Shown: piece by piece, positions 1,011 to 23,065 of the stretch
Layout of the letters: each line of letters begins with the position of its first letter
Numbering within the stretch: the first letter of the stretch is position 1
Notes under the pieces: generated by a model
Database searches by the model: none
What the model saw: the letters and a program-made list of their open reading frames with translations, nothing else
What the model was told of the DNA's origin: nothing
Made by a program: the position numbers and the translations under genes
Origin: Rheinheimera mangrovi
GTDB taxonomy: Bacteria; Pseudomonadota; Gammaproteobacteria; Enterobacterales; Alteromonadaceae
Direction: 5' to 3'
Assembly (NCBI RefSeq): GCF_003990335.1
Contig: NZ_CP034683.1
Span: 3,579,501 to 3,643,500, forward strand
Length of the DNA: 64,000 bases

Positions 1011-1712
1011 ATGAACACAAGTTATAAAACAATCCTCTCTCTGTTGTTAGCCGCCTCTGCCGCTCCAGCTCTGGCTAACTGGTCTGTAAATGTCGGTGCT
1101 ATTTCTGTAGCTCCACAAGACTCCAGTGGTCACCTGAATGTTGTTGAGACTGTCGCTGGTTTACCTGCTAATTCCACTGAAGTGTCTGTTAATAACAATA
1201 CCCAGTTGGGCATTACTATCGACTACCAATTGAATAAAAACTGGACCCTGGAGCTGATAGCGGCAACACCTTTTAGCCATGATGTTCAGGTAAAAGGTTC
1301 AGCCATCGACGGCTTGCCATTAGGCAGTACCAAACATTTACCTCCCACTTTATTAGCTCAGTACCATTTTGATTTGGGTGACAGCAGATTTGACCCTTTT
1401 ATTGGTTTAGGTCTGAATTACACTAACTTCTTTAAAGAAGAAGTGTCAGGCGAGTTAATCAGTACCTTGCAGGCACTGAATGTGACTGATGCAAATGACA
1501 AGGTAGAGCTTAAATTAAAAGACTCCTGGGGATTGGCCATGCAGGCTGGTGTTAATGTGAAGCTGGCGGATAGCTGGAGCGCACATCTGATGCTAAGTAA
1601 AATGGATATAGATACCACTGGCCGCGTACTGGTGAATAACACCAGCATTCAGTCTGTTGATGTCAGTATCGATCCTTATGTTTGGATGATTGGCGCCCGT
1701 TATTCGTTCTAA
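1011..1712 (+). CDS. ompW: OmpW family outer-membrane protein
   Basis: A 233-residue protein with a signal peptide (residues 1 to about 22, ending ALA) and the OmpW fold: an N-terminal NWSVNVGAISVAP segment, alternating amphipathic strands such as TLELIAATPFSHDVQV, the family motif LPPTLLAQYHFD near the middle, and an aromatic C-terminal residue (ARYSF) for BAM-dependent insertion. OmpW forms a small eight-stranded barrel in the outer membrane with a hydrophobic channel and is implicated in uptake of small hydrophobic compounds and in anaerobic or stress responses. AAGGA at 998-1002 is a good ribosome binding site. The gene stands alone, with a candidate FNR box upstream and a hairpin shared with the convergent PilZ gene downstream. 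Confidence 0.92.
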   Translation: MNTSYKTILSLLLAASAAPALANWSVNVGAISVAPQDSSGHLNVVETVAGLPANSTEVSVNNNTQLGITIDYQLNKNWTLELIAATPFSHDVQVKGSAIDGLPLGSTKHLPPTLLAQYHFDLGDSRFDPFIGLGLNYTNFFKEEVSGELISTLQALNVTDANDKVELKLKDSWGLAMQAGVNVKLADSWSAHLMLSKMDIDTTGRVLVNNTSIQSVDVSIDPYVWMIGARYSF

Positions 1713-1727
1713 AAGCAAACAGCAACT

Positions 1728-1766
1728 AACCAGTCCTTCTGACAGTGGCAACCTGAAGGACTGGTT
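1728..1766. terminator. Hairpin between convergent ompW and PilZ genes
   Basis: Perfect 12-bp arms AACCAGTCCTTC (1728-1739) and GAAGGACTGGTT (1755-1766) around a 15-base loop. It separates two convergent genes and touches the PilZ stop codon. There is no strong T run on either side, so terminator activity is likely but not certain. Confidence 0.6.
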
Positions 1767-2428
1767 CAGGAAGCAACGGCCAGTTTCTCTAAATACAGTT
1801 GCGGCAAGTTAAACTGAATACCAATAGATAACCCGCGTTCTTCCAGCCTGGAGTTACGTACTTCGCCCTTAATTTGCTGATTAATTCCTACTTTTTCACA
1901 TTGAATATGCAGAACTATAGGAGCCATATTGACTTTGTTGCCCTGAGGAGAAGGGTCAAATAAAAAACGACAGCCCCCACTGGATACGTCAATCACGTAG
2001 CCTTGAAAACTGCGGGCACTCTGCACAACTTCCAGATTGAGCCTCACCGACGCAGGAATAAAAATACTGTTACGGCGTTCATTACGCAACGCCCGACGCT
2101 GTATCATCACAGGGAAACTGACTACTACCAGTTTGTCAGGAAAACGCATCAGTTGCTGTAGTTCAGATTTAAAAGCGAAACATTCACCTACTGAATCTTC
2201 AACTAAAAAACGACAGACCACAGCCAAACCATTAATGAAAAAGCGGTCAGGTAAGGTATCATCATCAACCCTGAACAGCACATATTTACCCGCTTTATAA
2301 CCCACAAGTTCGCAGTTACACCGGCTTTTGCGTTGATCCAATAACTCCAAATCAAAACGCTGGCCAATTTTTACATGTGACAACCATTCTTTATTATCAG
2401 GATGTACAGAACTCACAGCTACTTGCAT
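1766..2428 (-). CDS. PilZ domain protein (YcgR-like, c-di-GMP binding)
   Basis: A 220-residue soluble protein. Residues 1 to about 105 look like the YcgR-type N-terminal PilZN beta domain. Residues 108 to about 215 form a PilZ domain with both c-di-GMP signature motifs: RxxxR at R115-R119 (within RALRNERRN) and DxSxxG at D147-G152 (DVSSGG). Proteins of this architecture bind cyclic di-GMP and act on motility, type IV pili or polysaccharide secretion. No flagellar or cellulose genes are next to it, so the partner is unknown. It is convergent with ompW and stands alone on its strand. Confidence 0.88.
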   Translation of the reverse strand: MQVAVSSVHPDNKEWLSHVKIGQRFDLELLDQRKSRCNCELVGYKAGKYVLFRVDDDTLPDRFFINGLAVVCRFLVEDSVGECFAFKSELQQLMRFPDKLVVVSFPVMIQRRALRNERRNSIFIPASVRLNLEVVQSARSFQGYVIDVSSGGCRFLFDPSPQGNKVNMAPIVLHIQCEKVGINQQIKGEVRNSRLEERGLSIGIQFNLPQLYLEKLAVAS

Positions 2429-2650
2429 ACCTTATCCTTCAGGTTTCACCGACTTCATGTCGGCAGTCTCGTTTGTGCGGGTGATAAAAGAGATACAACT
2501 AGTGTGTAAAAAAACAGGAGTAGGATCAAGAGCCAAAATGAAAAAAATTGCACATACAGTAAAAATGAAATACTTATTTAAACCTTCTGTTACATAAAAC
2601 AACAATGCGAAGTGGTGGCCTGAAAGGTGAGCGACAAGGATGGCCGCAAA

Positions 2651-2678
2651 AACAAGACCTGCCGAAGCAGGTCTTGTT
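2651..2678 (-). terminator. purL terminator
   Basis: Perfect 12-bp stem AACAAGACCTGC / GCAGGTCTTGTT (2651-2662 and 2667-2678) with a four-base loop, starting 19 bases past the purL stop. On the minus strand it is followed by a short T run. The 220 bases between it and the PilZ start hold no other gene I can support. Confidence 0.8.
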
Positions 2679-2696
2679 GTTATCATTTTTTCACTA

Positions 2697-5600
2697 TTAG
2701 CCTAACCAGACCCTGGCGTTGCGGAACATCCGCATCCACGGACTGTCTTCCTGCCACTCATCCGGGTACCAGCTGTTTGCCACAGTACGGAACACACGCT
2801 CTGGGTGAGGCATCATGATAGTGACACGACCGTCCGTTGTGGTTAACGAAGTGATACCCAGTGGTGATCCGTTTGGATTCGACGGGTATTGAGTCGTCAC
2901 ATTGCCGTAGTTGTCGACAAAACGTAACGCCACTGTGCCACTTTGATCCGCGGCTTGCAGTGCTGCTTGTGAAGCAAACTCTGCATGACCTTCGCCATGC
3001 GACACTGCGATAGGCATACGGGAACCTGCCATGCCTTTAAAGAATAAAGAGGCGCTTTCCTGTACTTCGACCAGGCTGAAACGGGCTTCGAAACGTTCAG
3101 ACTTGTTGCGGACGAAACGTGGCCATAAATCAGCACCAGGGATCAGGCTCTTCAGATTCGACATCATCTGACAACCGTTACAGACCCCTAAGCTAAAAGT
3201 GCTTTCACGCTCAAAAAACGCGGCAAATTCAGCACGGGCTTTGTCGTTAAACAGCACAGACTTCGCCCAGCCTTCACCAGCACCTAACACGTCACCGTAA
3301 GAGAAACCACCGCACGCCACTAAGCCGTTAAATTCAGCTAAAGAACGACGACCAGACAAAATGTCGCTCATATGCACGTCAACTGCATTAAAGCCTGCTC
3401 TGTTGTAGGCAGCAGCCATCTCAACATGAGAGTTTACGCCCTGCTCACGCAGAATAGCGACTTTTGGTTGTACACCTTTAAGGATATAAGGCGCTGCTAC
3501 ATCTTCGTTCAAATCAAAGCTTAATTTTGCGTTTAAGCCTGGATCTGTGACGTCTGCTTTAGCTACAAATTCCTGACGAGCCCCTTCAGGGTTATCACGC
3601 ATCAGTTGCATCTGATAGGTCGTTTCAGCCCAAATGGTACGTAAAGTGGTACGGCTGTTGCTGTACACCAGCTGATCGCCGCGGCTGATCTGAATTTGAT
3701 CGTCCGTCGTCACTTCACCTAATAAATGTGCCACAGCAGATAAATTATGCTGAGCTAAAATCGCCTGTACTACAGGTAAATCACTGTTTGCGACCTGCAG
3801 TACTGCACCTAACTCTTCGCTAAACAGCACGGCCAGGTTATCTGCGCCTAAGCTCGCAATATCAACTTTGATACCGGCTTTACCGGCAAAGGCCATTTCC
3901 GCCAGCGTGACAAATAAACCACCGTCTGAACGGTCATGGTAGGCCAGTAACTTCTGCTGGGCCACTAAAGCCTGCACAGCCTGATAGAAGTTCATCAGTA
4001 ATTCCGGGCTTTCCAGATCTGGCGCTGTTTGGCCTAACTGCTTATACACCTGAGCTAAACATGAGGCGCCTAAACGGTTGGCACCCTGGCCTAAATCCAA
4101 CAGGATCAGGCTGCTTGCGCCTTTGTCCGTGCGCAGCTGTGGTGTCACAGTGCGGCGAACATCTTCAACACGGGCAAAAGCTGTGATAATCAAGGATAAA
4201 GGTGAGGTCACTGTCTTCTGTTCACCATCCTGTTGCCAGCTGGTTTTCATCGACATGGAGTCTTTACCTACAGGGATAGTTAAACCCATAGCAGGACATA
4301 ACTCTTCGCCTATGGCCTTAACAGCCTGATACAAACCTGCATCTTCACCTGGGTGACCAGCTGCCGACATCCAGTTAGCCGACAGTTTGATATGTTTAAT
4401 ATCACCAATCTGAGTGGCTGCAATATTGGTAATAGATTCAGCAACAGCCAAACGGGCAGAAGCGGCGAAGTCTAATAAAGCAACAGGGGTACGTTCACCC
4501 ATCGACATGGCTTCGCCATGATAGGTATCGTAGGATGCAGCGGTCACACCACAGTTCGCTACCGGCACCTGCCATGGACCCACCATCTGATCACGGGCCA
4601 CTAAACCAGTGACTGTGCGGTCACCTATGGTGATCAGGAAGGTTTTTTCAGCAATAGTAGGTAAACGTAACAAACGCTCAGCTGCATCGGCCACTGTCAC
4701 GCCATTCAGATCTAAGGCTTTACCTTCTGTCACCTGAGATTTGACATCACGGTGCATTTTAGGCGCTTTGCCCAGCAGCACGTTCAGTGGCAAATCAATA
4801 GGCGTATTACCAAAATGCTGGTCTGACAGGGTCAGGTGGTGTTCAGCTGTGGCTTCACCCACTACAGCATAAGGTGCACGTTCGCGCTTACAAATCTCTT
4901 CAAACACAGCCATTTTGTCAGCTGGGATCGCCATCACATAACGTTCTTGTGATTCGTTACACCAGATTTCCAGTGGCGACATACCTGGCTCGTCGTTAGG
5001 CACGTTACGTAATTCGAACTTACCACCCACACCACCATCGTTGACCAGCTCAGGGAAGGCGTTAGATAAACCACCGGCACCTACGTCATGGATAAAACAA
5101 ATAGGGTTGGCATCGCCCAGCTGCCAGCAGCGGTCTATCACTTCCTGACAACGACGTTCAATTTCAGGGTTTTCACGTTGTACCGAAGCAAAATCTAAAT
5201 CTTCAGCCGACTGGCCTGAAGCCATAGAAGACGCAGCACCACCACCTAAACCTATGTTCATCGCCGGGCCACCCAGCACCACTAACTTGGCGCCAACAGG
5301 CATTTGGCCTTTTTGTACGTGCTCAGCACGGATATTGCCCATACCACCGGCAATCATAATAGGTTTGTGGTAACCACGAACTTCCTCGCCATTGTGGCTT
5401 GGCACTTTTTCTTCGTAAGTACGGAAGTAACCCAGAATATTCGGGCGACCAAATTCGTTGTTAAAGGCAGCACCACCTAATGGACCTTCTGTCATGATGT
5501 CTAAAGCAGTGACTATACGGTCTGGTTTACCAAAGTCAGTTTCCCATGGCTGTTCAAAACCCGGGATCCGTAAGTTAGATACAGAGAAACCTGATAAGCC

Positions 5601-8543: not shown

Positions 8544-9057
8544 ACTGCCCTTCCTCAACACTCTGCTGTTTTTCCTGCTGTTTTAATGCCTTTTGTTCTG
8601 CTCTGCGACGGCGGAAAAATTCAGAGAGTTTGTCTGCGCATTGCTGCGCCAAAGGACCATCCAGTACATCTAACTGATGATTCAACACCGGATGCCGCAC
8701 TATATCCAGCACAGAGCCAGCAGCACCGGTTTTTGCATCTTTAGCGCCAAATACCAGTCGTTTTACTCTGCTGTGCACTAAAAGACCTGCGCACATAGCA
8801 CAAGGCTCTAAAGTGACATATAAAGTGCAGTCTATCAGACGGTAATTGCCGACTTTTGCCGCAGCCTGCCGGATAGCCATCATTTCAGCATGAGCAGAAG
8901 GGTCGTTCAGTTGGATCGACTGATTCCAGCCCTCCCCCAGCACCATACCGTCTTTGATCAGCACAGCACCTACCGGAATTTCGCCACTTTGTTCAGCTTT
9001 ATCGGCCAGTTGCAAGGCATACTGCATCCAGTGTAAATCGTCGTCTGCTGCTGTCAC
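8533..9057 (-). CDS. tadA: tRNA-specific adenosine deaminase
   Basis: A 174-residue zinc-dependent deaminase that converts A34 to inosine in tRNA-Arg(ACG). The CDA-fold signatures are HAE (His56, catalytic Glu58) and PCAMC (Cys86, Cys89), which bind zinc and activate water. FGAKDAKTGAAGS matches the tRNA-binding loop of TadA. The C-terminal tail (FRRRRAEQKALKQQEKQQ) is basic and glutamine-rich, as in gammaproteobacterial TadA. It stands alone. In enterobacteria tadA also lies near mltF and purL, so this neighbourhood is conserved. Confidence 0.96.
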   Translation of the reverse strand: MTAADDDLHWMQYALQLADKAEQSGEIPVGAVLIKDGMVLGEGWNQSIQLNDPSAHAEMMAIRQAAAKVGNYRLIDCTLYVTLEPCAMCAGLLVHSRVKRLVFGAKDAKTGAAGSVLDIVRHPVLNHQLDVLDGPLAQQCADKLSEFFRRRRAEQKALKQQEKQQSVEEGQFKR

Positions 9058-18377: not shown

Positions 18378-20762
18378 TTACCACGCATAGTCAAATCGAA
18401 GACCAATCAGTGGCTCGGCTTCGCTATCGTCTTTCACTTCCACGCCCCGGCGGTAGTCAAACTCGGTGTCATCGCTGGACGAGGCTGAGGTGACGTTGAT
18501 CACATCCAGAAAGGCCGTAACATCTATAGGGCCAAATGCGCGTCTATAGTCCACACGAAGGTTCAACAAAGCTGAACCGCTTTTACGACCTACATTACGC
18601 TCTGTGATCTCTTTCGAATAGCGTAACGGTTGTCCGGCACCCAATACGTCTGCATGAATAATAAACTGGTCGTCTGGCCTGCCGGAAAGGTATTTGTAAC
18701 GCCCGGCGACTTTCCAGCGATCATTAATTTCCCAGGTCAGGCCAAGGGTAGCCACATGGTCGCGACTGAATTCGGCAGCGACCTCACCCCGACCATCTTT
18801 GCGGTCAACCACGGCATCATTGTAAGAATAGGTTGCGCTAGCGTATAGGCCTTCGCGAATTGTCCCCATAAGCACTATGTCGACTCCGTACGATCTGCCG
18901 TCCCCCATGTTGGCAAAGGTACCACTTGCTCTATCCAGGTCGACCACCAGATCGTCGAGCTTTTGATAATAAGCCTCAGTTAACAGCGACCACTGGGTGT
19001 TCGGGAAATATTTGAAACCAACACTAGCATGGCTGATTTTTTCATTCTTCAAATCGTTTGACTCGTTAGCCGCCAGGTAGAGAAAGCGTGGCGACTGATG
19101 AAAAAGTCCTGCGGTTGCAAAATATCTGACCAGACCAGCTGGCTGCCAGTTAAGGCTGAACCTGGGTGACACCAGGCTTTCGTCGGCAAAACCGTCCCGT
19201 TCGAGCCGCAGACCAGTGCCGAAATCCCAATCACCCCGCTCAAATACCTGATTAACGTAGCCAGCATAGCTGGTTTCTTTTTGCTTTATTGCAGAATTAA
19301 TGTTCTCGGGCTCAAGCACAATAAAGCGCTGCTGTGGGTCTGGTCTGAAATCATCGTCGTCGTAAACAAAGCGGTTCCAATCGCCATCTAACACTGTGTT
19401 GTAGTCCAGATCAATTTGCGTGATCTGACCACCTGCACTAAACAACCCCCATTGATTCGTCACCTCAAAATCACTTCGCCAACCCGTCTCCGTTTCGCGC
19501 TCACCTATGGTAATAATATCTTCCCGCACCGGAAAATCAGCGGCTGGCGATCCTGCTGGTACCAGATCAGGAAAGGCTTCGCCCTCTGAGCTTATTTTGT
19601 CGCTTTTGCGGTAGTAAACTTTATTGGTCCAGACCGCATCTTCACCTAGCAATGATCGCAAGGTCAGGCCATACAAATCACTATCTTGTTCGGCAGACTG
19701 CAGCGCAACATCTTCGAAATCAGGCGATGCAAACACGTGAGTGACATCACGAACATAGTCTTCGTGAGTATCCATCAATAAAACTTCAACGCTGTGATCC
19801 TGATTGACAGGAATAACCGACTTTAGAATGACGTCTCTGAGCACAGGGTTGCCGATGTCCAGTTCTTCAATAGTTTCAAACAAAGCGCCGAAGTCCAGCC
19901 GTCTGGCAGAAAACAGCATAGTAGAGTCATCGGTGATACCGGCAGGGCCGTCGTAACCTACTTCATAACCGGCAAGGTCGTAGCGAAAACTGGCTGAAGG
20001 GCTTGGATTACCATCAGCGACGTCTAACTTGAGTAGCGATGCTGCCCGGCCACCATAAGCCGGCCCCCAACCACCGGGCGAGAACTCTGCTCCGCCTATC
20101 ACGTTCGGCGCAAAAATCGAGAAACGCCCCCCACCACCCACATCTTCCTCTTCACCTAAAGTGGCGTCAAAGTGCACGGCTTTATCAAAGGGAAAGTCAT
20201 CAACAAATAACAAATTATCCCTTGGACCACGGCCACGCACACTAAAGCTGGCGAATTCACTGGCGGATGCCAGGCCAGGCAAGCCGTCCAACGACAGCAG
20301 CGGATCTGCACCTCCGCCTACAGCACTTGCCAGAGCTTCTCTGTCGAGATAGGTACTGGAGCCTGATGCAAAAACATCAGATTGTCGTCCCCGAACCTCT
20401 ACGACCTCGATGGAGTGCTGTTTAAGTTCGAATTCTATTTTGATAGTTTTGCGCGTCACCACCCGTACACTGGGCGCATTTAATGAAGCAAAGCCGCTTT
20501 TGGCGATGTCCACCGAGTACAGACCTGGCTCGAGCGATTCAACAAGGATACGACCTTGCTCGTCAGTTTCTAAGGTTTGAGTGGCAGAGCTTTCCCGTTG
20601 CTTAAGAGTGATCTGCACCTTTGACAGTGGCCGATCAGTATTCTGATCTTTGACGATAAAAGTCAGCGCACCGGGCGCTTCTGCTGCATGGGTAAAAACT
20701 GGCATGCCAATAAGGCCTCCCCACAACGTGATCCAGCATAGGTGTTTTAACTGTCTATTCAT
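18378..20762 (-). CDS. TonB-dependent outer-membrane receptor
   Basis: 794 residues from ATG 20762. A TTG five codons earlier overlaps the ribosome site GGAGG and is rejected. A signal peptide ends near THAA. The mature N-terminus carries a carboxypeptidase-regulatory-like beta-sandwich (about 30-115; TDEQGRILVESLEPGLYSV), then a plug domain (about 120-240, LLSLDGLPGL and SVRGRGPRDNLLFVDDFPFD). The rest is a 22-strand barrel rich in DxxF/Y strands, ending in aromatic DYAW. This architecture is used for siderophores, oligosaccharides or peptides. No Fur box or siderophore gene is near. Linkage to a two-component system suggests signal-controlled uptake. Confidence 0.9.
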   Translation of the reverse strand: MNRQLKHLCWITLWGGLIGMPVFTHAAEAPGALTFIVKDQNTDRPLSKVQITLKQRESSATQTLETDEQGRILVESLEPGLYSVDIAKSGFASLNAPSVRVVTRKTIKIEFELKQHSIEVVEVRGRQSDVFASGSSTYLDREALASAVGGGADPLLSLDGLPGLASASEFASFSVRGRGPRDNLLFVDDFPFDKAVHFDATLGEEEDVGGGGRFSIFAPNVIGGAEFSPGGWGPAYGGRAASLLKLDVADGNPSPSASFRYDLAGYEVGYDGPAGITDDSTMLFSARRLDFGALFETIEELDIGNPVLRDVILKSVIPVNQDHSVEVLLMDTHEDYVRDVTHVFASPDFEDVALQSAEQDSDLYGLTLRSLLGEDAVWTNKVYYRKSDKISSEGEAFPDLVPAGSPAADFPVREDIITIGERETETGWRSDFEVTNQWGLFSAGGQITQIDLDYNTVLDGDWNRFVYDDDDFRPDPQQRFIVLEPENINSAIKQKETSYAGYVNQVFERGDWDFGTGLRLERDGFADESLVSPRFSLNWQPAGLVRYFATAGLFHQSPRFLYLAANESNDLKNEKISHASVGFKYFPNTQWSLLTEAYYQKLDDLVVDLDRASGTFANMGDGRSYGVDIVLMGTIREGLYASATYSYNDAVVDRKDGRGEVAAEFSRDHVATLGLTWEINDRWKVAGRYKYLSGRPDDQFIIHADVLGAGQPLRYSKEITERNVGRKSGSALLNLRVDYRRAFGPIDVTAFLDVINVTSASSSDDTEFDYRRGVEVKDDSEAEPLIGLRFDYAW

Positions 20763-21007
20763 CTTGCTAACCTCCAAAAATCAACCCTGTTTATTTGAAG
20801 AACTGCAGGCAGGCTAGCAGAGCCAATGTGACTAAAAAGTCGCCAAATTATGAAAGTTACATCAATGTCATGGTCTTAAATTTGGGGGAAAGGTCAGTCG
20901 CAGCGACAACGCTTGCGTTGAACAGCAGTAGGTTGTACTCGTCGCGCAGCGGCAGTACAACAATGAAACTAGCGGTAATAAACAATTTAGGATTTTGAAT
21001 TCAAAGC
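20763..21007. other. Leader region of the receptor gene
   Basis: About 245 bases upstream of the TonB-dependent receptor. A minus-strand TTGATG and CATAAT lie near 20845-20870 but with poor spacing. I find no clear operator and no gene here. Region ends where the left inverted-repeat arm starts. Confidence 0.4.
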
Positions 21008-21237
21008 GTATCGCCTTTGGCGAGATACTTTCTTTTGCTTCGCCAAAAGAAAGCTATCCAAAGAAAAGGCGACCCCAGGTCGCAGCGAAAGCCCGGCCCA
21101 AAACCGTGCGTCCAAGGCGACTCGGCAACTCGTTCGTCGCTACCGCTCCTCGCTCAAACACTCCTCGTCTTAAAACCTTGGCCACCCAATTTTGTCCGGC
21201 TCGCGCCCCAATGGGGATTTGGTGCCAGTAGTTGGTA
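21008..21237. repeat. Left arm of ~230-bp inverted repeat
   Basis: Imperfect inverted copy of 22699-22928, about 90% identical by eye. The outer edge has GGCGAGATAC, then a self-complementary CTTTCTTTTG-CTTCGC-CAAAAGAAAG hairpin (21028-21053), AAGAAAAGGCGACCCCAGGT, and an inner edge CCAGTAGTTGGTA. Together the arms enclose 1.46 kb with two genes. Confidence 0.9.
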
Positions 21238-21499
21238 TGGTTTTTGCTGATTGGCAGTTAAGAGCGAAAAGCGACATTAGGGCACATCACAAGACCTAAC
21301 CCTAGCGTCCCTCAAGGCTCCATTCTGGCATGTATAAAGTTTGTGTGGCCCATTTTAGGCATTTTAGAAAAAGTTGTTGAAATAGAGGTATGTCAGCGTT
21401 AGTTTGGTATGAGTGAAAATCAGGAGATAAGGCTGGAAAAGTTCTGCGTGTTAGCAGGCTGCCTTTGAAAAATCATTGTTACAACTACATGGAGTAGCT
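21238..21499. other. Non-coding lead-in inside the inverted-repeat cassette
   Basis: About 260 bases between the left arm and the lipoprotein gene. It is more A+T-rich than the arms. No terminator, tRNA or convincing promoter was recognised; it presumably carries the promoter for the cassette genes. Confidence 0.35.
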
Positions 21500-21856
21500 A
21501 TGCAAATTTGGAGTGCTTTGCTGTTGGTGCTTTTGCTGTCCGGATGTGCAACACCCGTGAGTCACACAAACATACCGCTTTCAACCTATGACAAAGATAC
21601 CGAGTATGGTATAGAAAAAAGGGACGATGGATTCGCAATTACCGTTTTCTACTCACGCTATCAATTCATACCTGAAAGTGATGTTTTAGCAACAGCTTGC
21701 AAGAGCCAGCTAACCTCTATCGCTTGGGAACATGCAGATAACGAGGGGCGTGAAATTGAACCAGTCAACGAGCAAAGAATTCGCATTTCAATGGGCCGCA
21801 ATGAGTTAACAGGTATAACCTCTTGCCAGGCCAATGCCATCGCTAAGTGGAAGTAG
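21500..21856 (+). CDS. Small lipoprotein of unknown function (cassette gene 1)
   Basis: 118 residues from ATG 21500, chosen because GGAG (21491-21494) lies five bases upstream; the open frame starts at a TTG eight codons earlier. The leader MQIWSALLLVLLLSGC has a clear lipobox LSGC (Cys16), so it should be lipidated and carried to the inner or outer membrane. The mature part has no domain I recognise; two further cysteines (in TACKSQ and TSCQAN) could form a disulfide. It lies inside the inverted-repeat cassette, 66 bases before the zinc-ribbon gene, on the same strand. Confidence 0.8.
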   Translation: MQIWSALLLVLLLSGCATPVSHTNIPLSTYDKDTEYGIEKRDDGFAITVFYSRYQFIPESDVLATACKSQLTSIAWEHADNEGREIEPVNEQRIRISMGRNELTGITSCQANAIAKWK

Positions 21857-21922
21857 ATTAAATTGAATCGCTGCGATCTCAATTTATCGGATAGTAGGGC
21901 TTGAACTTCGTTTGGAGGTACA

Positions 21923-22696
21923 GTGGGTTATTTCCCGAAAGTTCATTTTGAAAATGCTAGAGCTCTTTCTGAGAGTAAAGAAGATAGCCAACTTCGATAT
22001 TGTTGCTTAGAGCTTCGCTACTGTATTGAAGCAATTGTATACAAGAAGTTATCTGCTTTTCGTGATATTCCAAACACTATTACTGAAACTTGGCAACCGC
22101 ATAAAGCTATCAAAATGCTTAGTAAGATTGATGAGTTTGCAGACAAATACTGTAAAGTAGAAATAAATTTTTGTCAGTCAAATATTCCGCCGATAGATGG
22201 TTGGATCGCTCTGGGAGAACAAAAGATACCATCCGTACAATGGCTGACTAAAAATTACAGCAAGCTTGGAAATTTTCTGCACTTACCTAAGCCTAATGAG
22301 AGCGAGTCATTCAATACTGAAAAGATAAAAAAGTGTGTAATTGATGTACTTGACGGCATAGAACAATATGTAAACACGGATATTTGGATTAGGGCGTCTG
22401 GTATTGAACTTCAGGCTTGCCTAGAGTGCTCCGAAGATCTTATTTTTGATCGTAACCAACTTAAAGAAGCTGATGTTGTCGAGTGTGACTCATGCAAATT
22501 TCGCTATCGAGTAAAGTCGAAAGGTGGTAACAAACTTACCTTGTCATATACGGTACATGACGTTAAATGTGGTCGCTGTGGTGAGATGCTACAAATTGAT
22601 GACCAGAAAATCATGAAAAATCGTGAGTTCGTATGCGGGTTTTGTGGAGAAGATCATGTTGTTGTCCCAGCATATCGTCGCAGCTCTCAGACCTAA
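21923..22696 (+). CDS. Zinc-ribbon protein of unknown function (cassette gene 2)
   Basis: 257 residues from GTG 21923, with GGAGG four bases upstream. The N-terminal ~160 residues are predicted helical, with a motif LELRYCIEAIVYKKL and a WLTKNYSKLGNFLHLPKP block that I associate with an unnamed family found scattered in bacteria. The C-terminal third has CxxC knuckles: CLEC and CDSC (first ribbon), then CGRC and CGFC (second ribbon). No catalytic motif is visible. A+T content is visibly higher than in flanking core genes, consistent with transfer. The stop codon lies two bases before the right inverted-repeat arm. The function is unknown; defence or stress roles are only possibilities. Confidence 0.75.
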   Translation: MGYFPKVHFENARALSESKEDSQLRYCCLELRYCIEAIVYKKLSAFRDIPNTITETWQPHKAIKMLSKIDEFADKYCKVEINFCQSNIPPIDGWIALGEQKIPSVQWLTKNYSKLGNFLHLPKPNESESFNTEKIKKCVIDVLDGIEQYVNTDIWIRASGIELQACLECSEDLIFDRNQLKEADVVECDSCKFRYRVKSKGGNKLTLSYTVHDVKCGRCGEMLQIDDQKIMKNREFVCGFCGEDHVVVPAYRRSSQT

Positions 22697-22698
22697 GC

Positions 22699-22928
22699 TA
22701 CCAACTACTGGCACCAACCCCCCATTAGGGCGCGAGCCGGACAAAATTGGGTGGCCAAGGTTTTAAGGCTGGGAGTGTCTGAGTGAGGAGCGGTAGCGAC
22801 GAGCGAGTTGCCCAGCCGCCTTGGACGCACGATTTTGGGCCGGGATTTCGCTGCGACCTGGGGTCGCCTTTTCTTTGGATACTTTCTTTTGGCGAAGCAA
22901 AAGAAAGTATCTCGCCAGCGGCGAAACG
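22699..22928. repeat. Right arm of ~230-bp inverted repeat
   Basis: Inverted counterpart of 21008-21237, with the same internal hairpin (22882-22907) and the same edge TACCAACTACTGG. Differences from the left arm are scattered substitutions plus short indels. It starts immediately after the zinc-ribbon gene. Confidence 0.9.
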
Positions 22929-23005
22929 GTTTAAAACAAAAAATGTAGCAATGAAGAACTTAGCTAATCAGCGCTAAAAGACGGTCATTGATCCCTCTGA
23001 TACCA

Positions 23006-23033
23006 CGGGCGGGTGCAAGACCCGCCCCTACAA
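23006..23033. repeat. Short GC-rich hairpin repeat (REP-like), copy 2
   Basis: GGGCGGGT (23007-23014), loop GCAAG, ACCCGCCC (23020-23027), followed by CTACAA. Inverse orientation of the GTAGGGG-edged element at 9520-9549. Confidence 0.65.
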
Positions 23034-23065
23034 TTTCGAATCGACGAAAAGCCCAAAAACAACAA

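Follow-up and report, generated by a model that had tools for sequence, protein, structure and literature searches.

A probable transposase-less unit with convergent self-folding arms around two small genes beside der in Rheinheimera mangrovi

In the window, that is the whole 64,000-nucleotide stretch of Rheinheimera mangrovi DNA analysed here, two small genes are enclosed by the arms of a long inverted repeat. Inverted-repeat search and blastn place the left arm, in the part common to the right arm, at 20993-21237 (plus strand) and the right arm at 22699-22942 (minus strand). The arms form one inverted blastn match of 245 columns with 91.4% identity, and the repeat search returns two inverted pairs, 21046-21237/22699-22890 (192 nt, 91%) and 20993-21053/22882-22942 (87%). 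The original prediction, made from the letters alone, of inverted arms about 90% identical at 21008-21237 and 22699-22928 is borne out, with coordinates some 15 bases short on the outer side. Each arm harbours a self-folding core that a covariance model (R1, see below) identifies as a copy, at 21086-21204 in the left arm (plus strand, G000:C1:3600586-3600704) and at 22732-22850 in the right arm (minus strand, G000:C1:3602232-3602350); G000 denotes the own genome, and further G and L numbers the other genomes and loci compared. An outer hairpin, P1, is located at 21024-21058 (plus strand) and at 22878-22911 (minus strand, stem GATAC/GTATC); in the left arm its stem differs on both sides among copies. 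The left arm also has an inner extension (21238-21297, plus strand) that is absent on the right and weakly resembles the inner flanks of solo copies from the own genome, where the match to L025 extends to 21297 at 71% and that to L028 reaches 63%.

Cargo gene 1 (21500-21856, plus strand) encodes a predicted lipoprotein of 118 amino acids with the lipobox LLSGC, and cargo gene 2 (21923-22696, plus strand) a protein of 257 amino acids with a HEPN-like helical part (residues ~1-156) and two zinc ribbons (~160-245). A lipoprotein gene and a double zinc-ribbon gene between the arms had been predicted, and both open reading frames are present. Further expectations for the cargo agree with the data: gene 2, with its stop codon at 22694-22696, ends two bases short of the right arm; the G+C content of the cargo (0.408) is below that of the window (0.471), der (0.473) and the TonB-like gene (0.506); and there is no transposase among the open reading frames between the arms or in a Pfam scan of both cargo proteins. 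The identities of der and the TonB-like gene rest on a Pfam scan. The latter gene (18378-20777) adjoins the unit, and a relative of it adjoins a loaded unit in G014 (L113:1-1700), beside another gene.

An alignment of 13 sequences of the gene 2 protein, with 46 further relatives outside it, contains two CxxC..CxxC sets in which seven of the eight cysteines are invariant, together with an invariant K114-x5-H120. In none of these 13 sequences is there an arginine at the place required by the Rx4-6H RNase motif of the HEPN superfamily, and since this usual arginine is absent, RNase activity of the gene 2 product is doubtful. Gene 2 matches no PADLOC defence family at E 0.01 and was not found in viral contigs, and no relatives of the lipoprotein were found in plasmids. 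The HEPN-like zinc-ribbon protein is inferred to act in conflict or stress as an accessory protein. On a Sinorhizobium plasmid (L329:5273-8627) a distant relative of gene 2 shares an operon with genes for multiubiquitin, ThiF and DUF6527 proteins, and the gene order in L331 may resemble that operon. The cargo was also considered as integron cassettes, a candidate that gained no support from the one locus scanned: the stretch around the sole viral-contig relative of the lipoprotein (L332) has no attC-like site in a simple script scan.

Both window genes are found in three of 60 genomes (G000, G001 and G021), beside der, so that the same place and content in all relatives, named beforehand as evidence against a mobile unit, is not what the genomes hold. 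The window unit is 97.9-98.0% identical in G021 and G001 and the cargo 99.0% and 98.7%, compared to 88.5-90.8% on the der side (90.1% for der of G021). Bases 21008-21237 of the left arm are 98% identical to the left arms of both genomes. The right arm contains a step near 22875, with four differences in its 180 inner bases and then eight and eleven in the 61 bases beyond. Here the P1 hairpin is altered on both sides of its stem, which reads GCCGC/GCGGC in G001 and G021, and the outer right-arm form of these two genomes resembles the solo arms L022 and L023 of the own genome. By alignment, the species thus resemble one another far more in the window unit than in its flank, with one identity step inside the right arm.

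At the same der/TonB site G002 carries other cargo (159 and 279 amino acids) with one full arm and a fragment. One arm that lacks its hairpin core remains in G006, short outer-end pieces of ~31-48 bases remain in G008, G009 and G011, and in G004 and G013 an arm is located at a contig end. A check for empty sites at der therefore yields several relatives without an intact pair. The predicted interpretation as a cargo unit moved by recombination holds in part: contents do vary, and the close match of the unit to the two species stops near the outer arm ends.

The arms belong to a dispersed family. In the own genome (one contig of 4,628,354 bases) we find 18 BLAST pieces of the arm and 11 covariance-model copies, the window pair included, which places the window arms beyond chance. 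BLAST matches to the arm occur in 22 of the 60 genomes including the own, 19 in the genus Rheinheimera and three, weak ones, in other families. Model R1, a 120-position core built from 39 arms, gives 164 matches at E ≤ 0.001, a few of them partial or weak, in 19 of 19 Rheinheimera genomes searched; this search was run in two batches (48 and 116 matches), scored at most 150 candidates per genome and left out the genus genomes G004, G008 and G013. A motif scan of named species genomes returned at least 120 stretches in Rheinheimera, beta-proteobacteria and some MAGs. Among the matches listed, the genera other than Rheinheimera are Chromobacterium, Aquitalea, Vogesella, Craterilacuibacter, Pseudogulbenkiania and Chitinibacter; three viral contigs also matched the motif, while blastn of the arm against plasmid and phage collections gave no match. 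Judging from the copies aligned, the arms exist as compact, gene-loaded and solo units and as remnants. Optional palindrome-rich modules are inserted within the arm in the solo copies L024-L028 of the own genome, so that the repeats look nested.

Each arm is predicted to fold on its own. Across 30 base pairs in 39 sequences, 89.7% of the cells pair compared to 72.2% in shuffles, double-sided pair changes occupy 225 cells compared to 73.8, and the score is 0.457 compared to 0.160, although the structure was picked by hand on the same alignment and the test therefore favours it. Sliding the partners abolishes the signal. There is no clear excess in the number of pairs with a double change (20 compared to 17.1, with 30 of 500 shuffles equal or higher) and none in further pair types (35 compared to 40.1). 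The innermost helix pairs in 76.9% of cells only, where, judging by the alignment, failures are found mainly in window-type arms, and the outer P1 stem varies on both sides between copies. Since whole hairpins move as blocks, double changes can arise from that alone, and part of the covariation may be due to hairpins exchanged whole and not to selection for pairing. One-sided changes of the G-U type account for only 10 of 1160 cells; with Watson-Crick pairs on both sides and so few one-sided changes the arms fit DNA hairpins better than RNA, and the idea that they act as RNA is set back.

In the Rheinheimera genomes 32 of 36 neighbouring arms within 3 kb are convergent, three are tandem and one is divergent (P ~1e-15 at an expectation of 25%, a value that is too small because some of the 32 pairs are orthologous). 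A second arm set, comprising 96 of at least 123 stretches with 27 Rheinheimera-titled ones omitted, contains 22 convergent neighbours out of 32, most of the others belonging to tandem arrays of one Rheinheimera. Of 18 arm neighbours in the beta-proteobacterial loci, named or MAG (n = 72), 16 are convergent. Rheinheimera sp. UJ63 has three and four arms in the same direction (L257:4234-5109 and L270:275-2228). The 32 pairs of the genus comprise 14 compact ones, with 92-266 bases between the cores and open reading frames inspected in five, and 18 loaded ones with 697-2115 bases.

Partner arms resemble each other less than do arms drawn at random from one genome, as expected of the left and right ends of one unit. 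Their mean identity is 72.3% compared to 78.3% upon random re-pairing within genomes, and none of 2000 re-pairings was as low (27 pairs, eight genomes). For 52 of 54 arms some non-partner arm in the same genome is closer than the partner; in G001 partner and re-paired identities are no different (93.5 and 93.3). This two-subtype rule fades in the group formed by L093, the window unit and its counterparts in G001 and G021, because the arms there are 88-97% alike. The best reading of these comparisons is that the two arms of most units differ in subtype, much as a left end would from a right one.

The 18 loaded pairs represent 16 distinct units, as two repeat the window cargo. Family cargo includes Phd/ParE (L093), DUF2971 (L093 and L101), HEPN (L112) and MerR (L106) proteins, a UDG-family protein (L102), a zinc-ribbon protein (L097), a lipoprotein (L100) and unknowns. 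In L099 Phd/ParE is located between two tandem arms and a 160-amino-acid protein inside the convergent pair. PADLOC analysis of 18 proteins, a set without gene 1, assigns PDC-S31 to two DUF2971 proteins, with a partial Stk2 match in L111 and a weak AbiEii match in L099. A role of the family cargo in defence or stress is plausible from the kinds of genes carried. The viral contig L290 has a loaded arm pair (1248-4363) with a 769-amino-acid NACHT protein (PF05729, 6.4e-9) next to genes that we take to be Mu-like, and units may thus ride on phage DNA. A gene that is presumably IS110-like lies between two tandem arms in L109 (2804-4558), and related sequence is found near an arm in L124. The labels IS110, Mor and gp16 come from reading the sequence by eye, as do the flank names M48, LacI, GH3, M28, CorA, PLP decarboxylase, EamA, ilvB and cnoX.

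To the question posed at the outset, whether contents differ between arms, the answer is yes, at other sites and at the same site. Six sites carry a loaded pair in at least two species; one is the der site and the other five hold different genes, which encode toxin-antitoxin, DUF2971, HEPN, MerR, UDG-like and unknown proteins, in comparisons drawn from loci already fetched, a non-exhaustive sample. At these five sites the cargo is mutually dissimilar, the main flanks are 79-92% identical and the arms stand at corresponding places, with the second flank at site B common over 133 bases only, and at site D only the M48 side common and one G014 arm degenerate. At sites B and C 45-110 bases internal to the arms are also common to both species, and the exchange point there lies outside the arm proper. 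In L101 the arm at 8660 combines an outer stem of type 1 with a hairpin tip of type 2, pointing to block exchange inside arms. Phd/ParE is the only cargo set at two sites, where free shuffling among slots would predict more. Searches with the LacI and M48 flanks gave no clean empty site. As far as sequence comparison can tell, a site can exchange its cargo from one species to the next and still keep its arms and at least one flank collinear.

We consider it probable that 20993-22942 belongs, as a gene-loaded member, to a family of units that lack a transposase and exchange their cargo through recombination in the arms. Such a unit would consist of two convergent arms of ~200 bases, each folding alone into a chain of hairpins that would matter as folded DNA and not as RNA. 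As the slots offer similar end sequences, homologous recombination between arms could swap the cargo in one block once DNA has been taken up, as the identity steps suggest, and the ends may first have been spread by some factor acting in trans.

A rather unlikely alternative is a non-autonomous transposon, MITE-like or resembling an oversized REPIN, whose ends would be recognised in trans by a transposase elsewhere and whose loaded copies would move whole. This would account for the convergent ends of two types, the compact form repeated within genomes, the arms in both Rheinheimera and beta-proteobacteria and a unit on a prophage-like contig, and inverted hairpin ends are described for REPINs (PMC3116915). 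However, Y1 transposase matches, present in nine of 11 genomes at 15 loci, have an arm within ~1.5 kb on either side at none of these loci, and G003 and G019 have arms and no Y1 match, which lends a link to REPINs and RAYTs no support. The principal cargo ORFs in the 16 distinct loaded units belong to no transposase, integrase or recombinase family. No direct target-site duplication was seen at the two sites compared, where palindromic ends blur the test; an 18-base overlap in G010, considered as such a duplication, is the palindromic centre of a remnant. Moreover, shared sites differ in cargo, rather than one unit being found at many sites. At two sites in G010 (L294:1345-1515 and L325:2480-2640) a palindrome of ~150 bases consists of two outer ends joined, which represents either a collapsed unit or a simpler precursor.

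It is improbable that the arms are structured bidirectional terminators or insulators between whose shielded flanks accessory genes persist. The arms are intergenic and rich in hairpins, and a compact unit can stand in place of a terminator-like hairpin between genes. An example is the compact unit L096 of G003, whose position in G018 is taken by a short hairpin of terminator-like form with ~20 bases between matching flanks. The scarcity of one-sided changes is nevertheless unlike a structure kept as RNA, loaded units are also located between tandem and divergent genes on reading by eye, and Rfam scans of window positions 20900-23050 and five loci returned nothing at gathering score, with one sub-threshold match per scan. 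Two independent insertions of a common dispersed repeat that bracket two genes by chance, as the nine other model copies of the own genome, all unpaired, might suggest, are very improbable given the surplus of convergent pairs and unlike partners and the recurrence of this pair and its cargo in two other species as a single block of 98% identity.

The favoured reading, a recombining gene-loaded unit, has parallels in known systems. According to the REPIN study, 93% of 430 REP doublets are inverted and singlets are seen as remnants; the units are linked to RAYTs, and pairing across the unit takes place between conserved 16-mers, which in the GI type are 71 bp apart (PMC3116915). REPINs share with the arms the inverted pair as basic unit, singlets, hairpins, compensatory changes and the extragenic position. 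The convergent neighbours and many solo copies agree with an inverted pair as the unit. The two ends do not pair into one hairpin as in the REPINs described there, as partners are mostly unlike each other and stems pair within each arm, although cross-arm pairing is possible in the window group with its closely similar partners. The present arms are ~200 nt long and fold alone, the units carry genes, and no Y1 transposase was found beside an arm.

Mobile insertion cassettes and MITEs have inverted ends around passenger genes and no transposase, as is the case here. In contrast, the ends of the present units are far longer and structured, shared sites exhibit cargo turnover, and neither a parent IS nor a target duplication was found. 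Integron gene cassettes carry one attC per gene in direct arrays and depend on an integrase; both feature small exchangeable accessory genes and folded DNA sites that resemble one another within a lineage, whereas here an inverted pair surrounds the cargo and the scanned cargo is free of integrase. Foldback elements of eukaryotes also have long inverted ends and a variable middle, but in the present units every arm folds by itself and partner arms mostly have different sequences.

We conclude that these gene slots with self-folding ends form a real family, absent from the literature searched, in which no description of the arm repeat was found (subscription papers were largely outside the scope of that search). 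In related bacteria the same type of slot is occupied by other genes or is empty, which suggests a hitherto undescribed route for exchanging small genes that are possibly defence-related. More tentatively, self-folding DNA ends of two types, recognised by a host or phage factor, might make up a new class of mobile cassette platform in Rheinheimera and Chromobacterium-like bacteria. At fixed sites in chromosomes and prophages, single genes for defence or stress would be taken in, exchanged and lost, much as in an integron but with no integrase in the unit. The cargo swaps at single sites render the recombination route directly testable. If true, our reading adds a gene-exchange platform that finders based on transposases or integrases are likely to miss, since neither enzyme is in the unit and the cargo amounts to one to a few small genes. 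With the arm model, genomes could be scanned for convergent arms to list the accessory genes, of which several have no known function, as candidates for a role in phage defence or stress.
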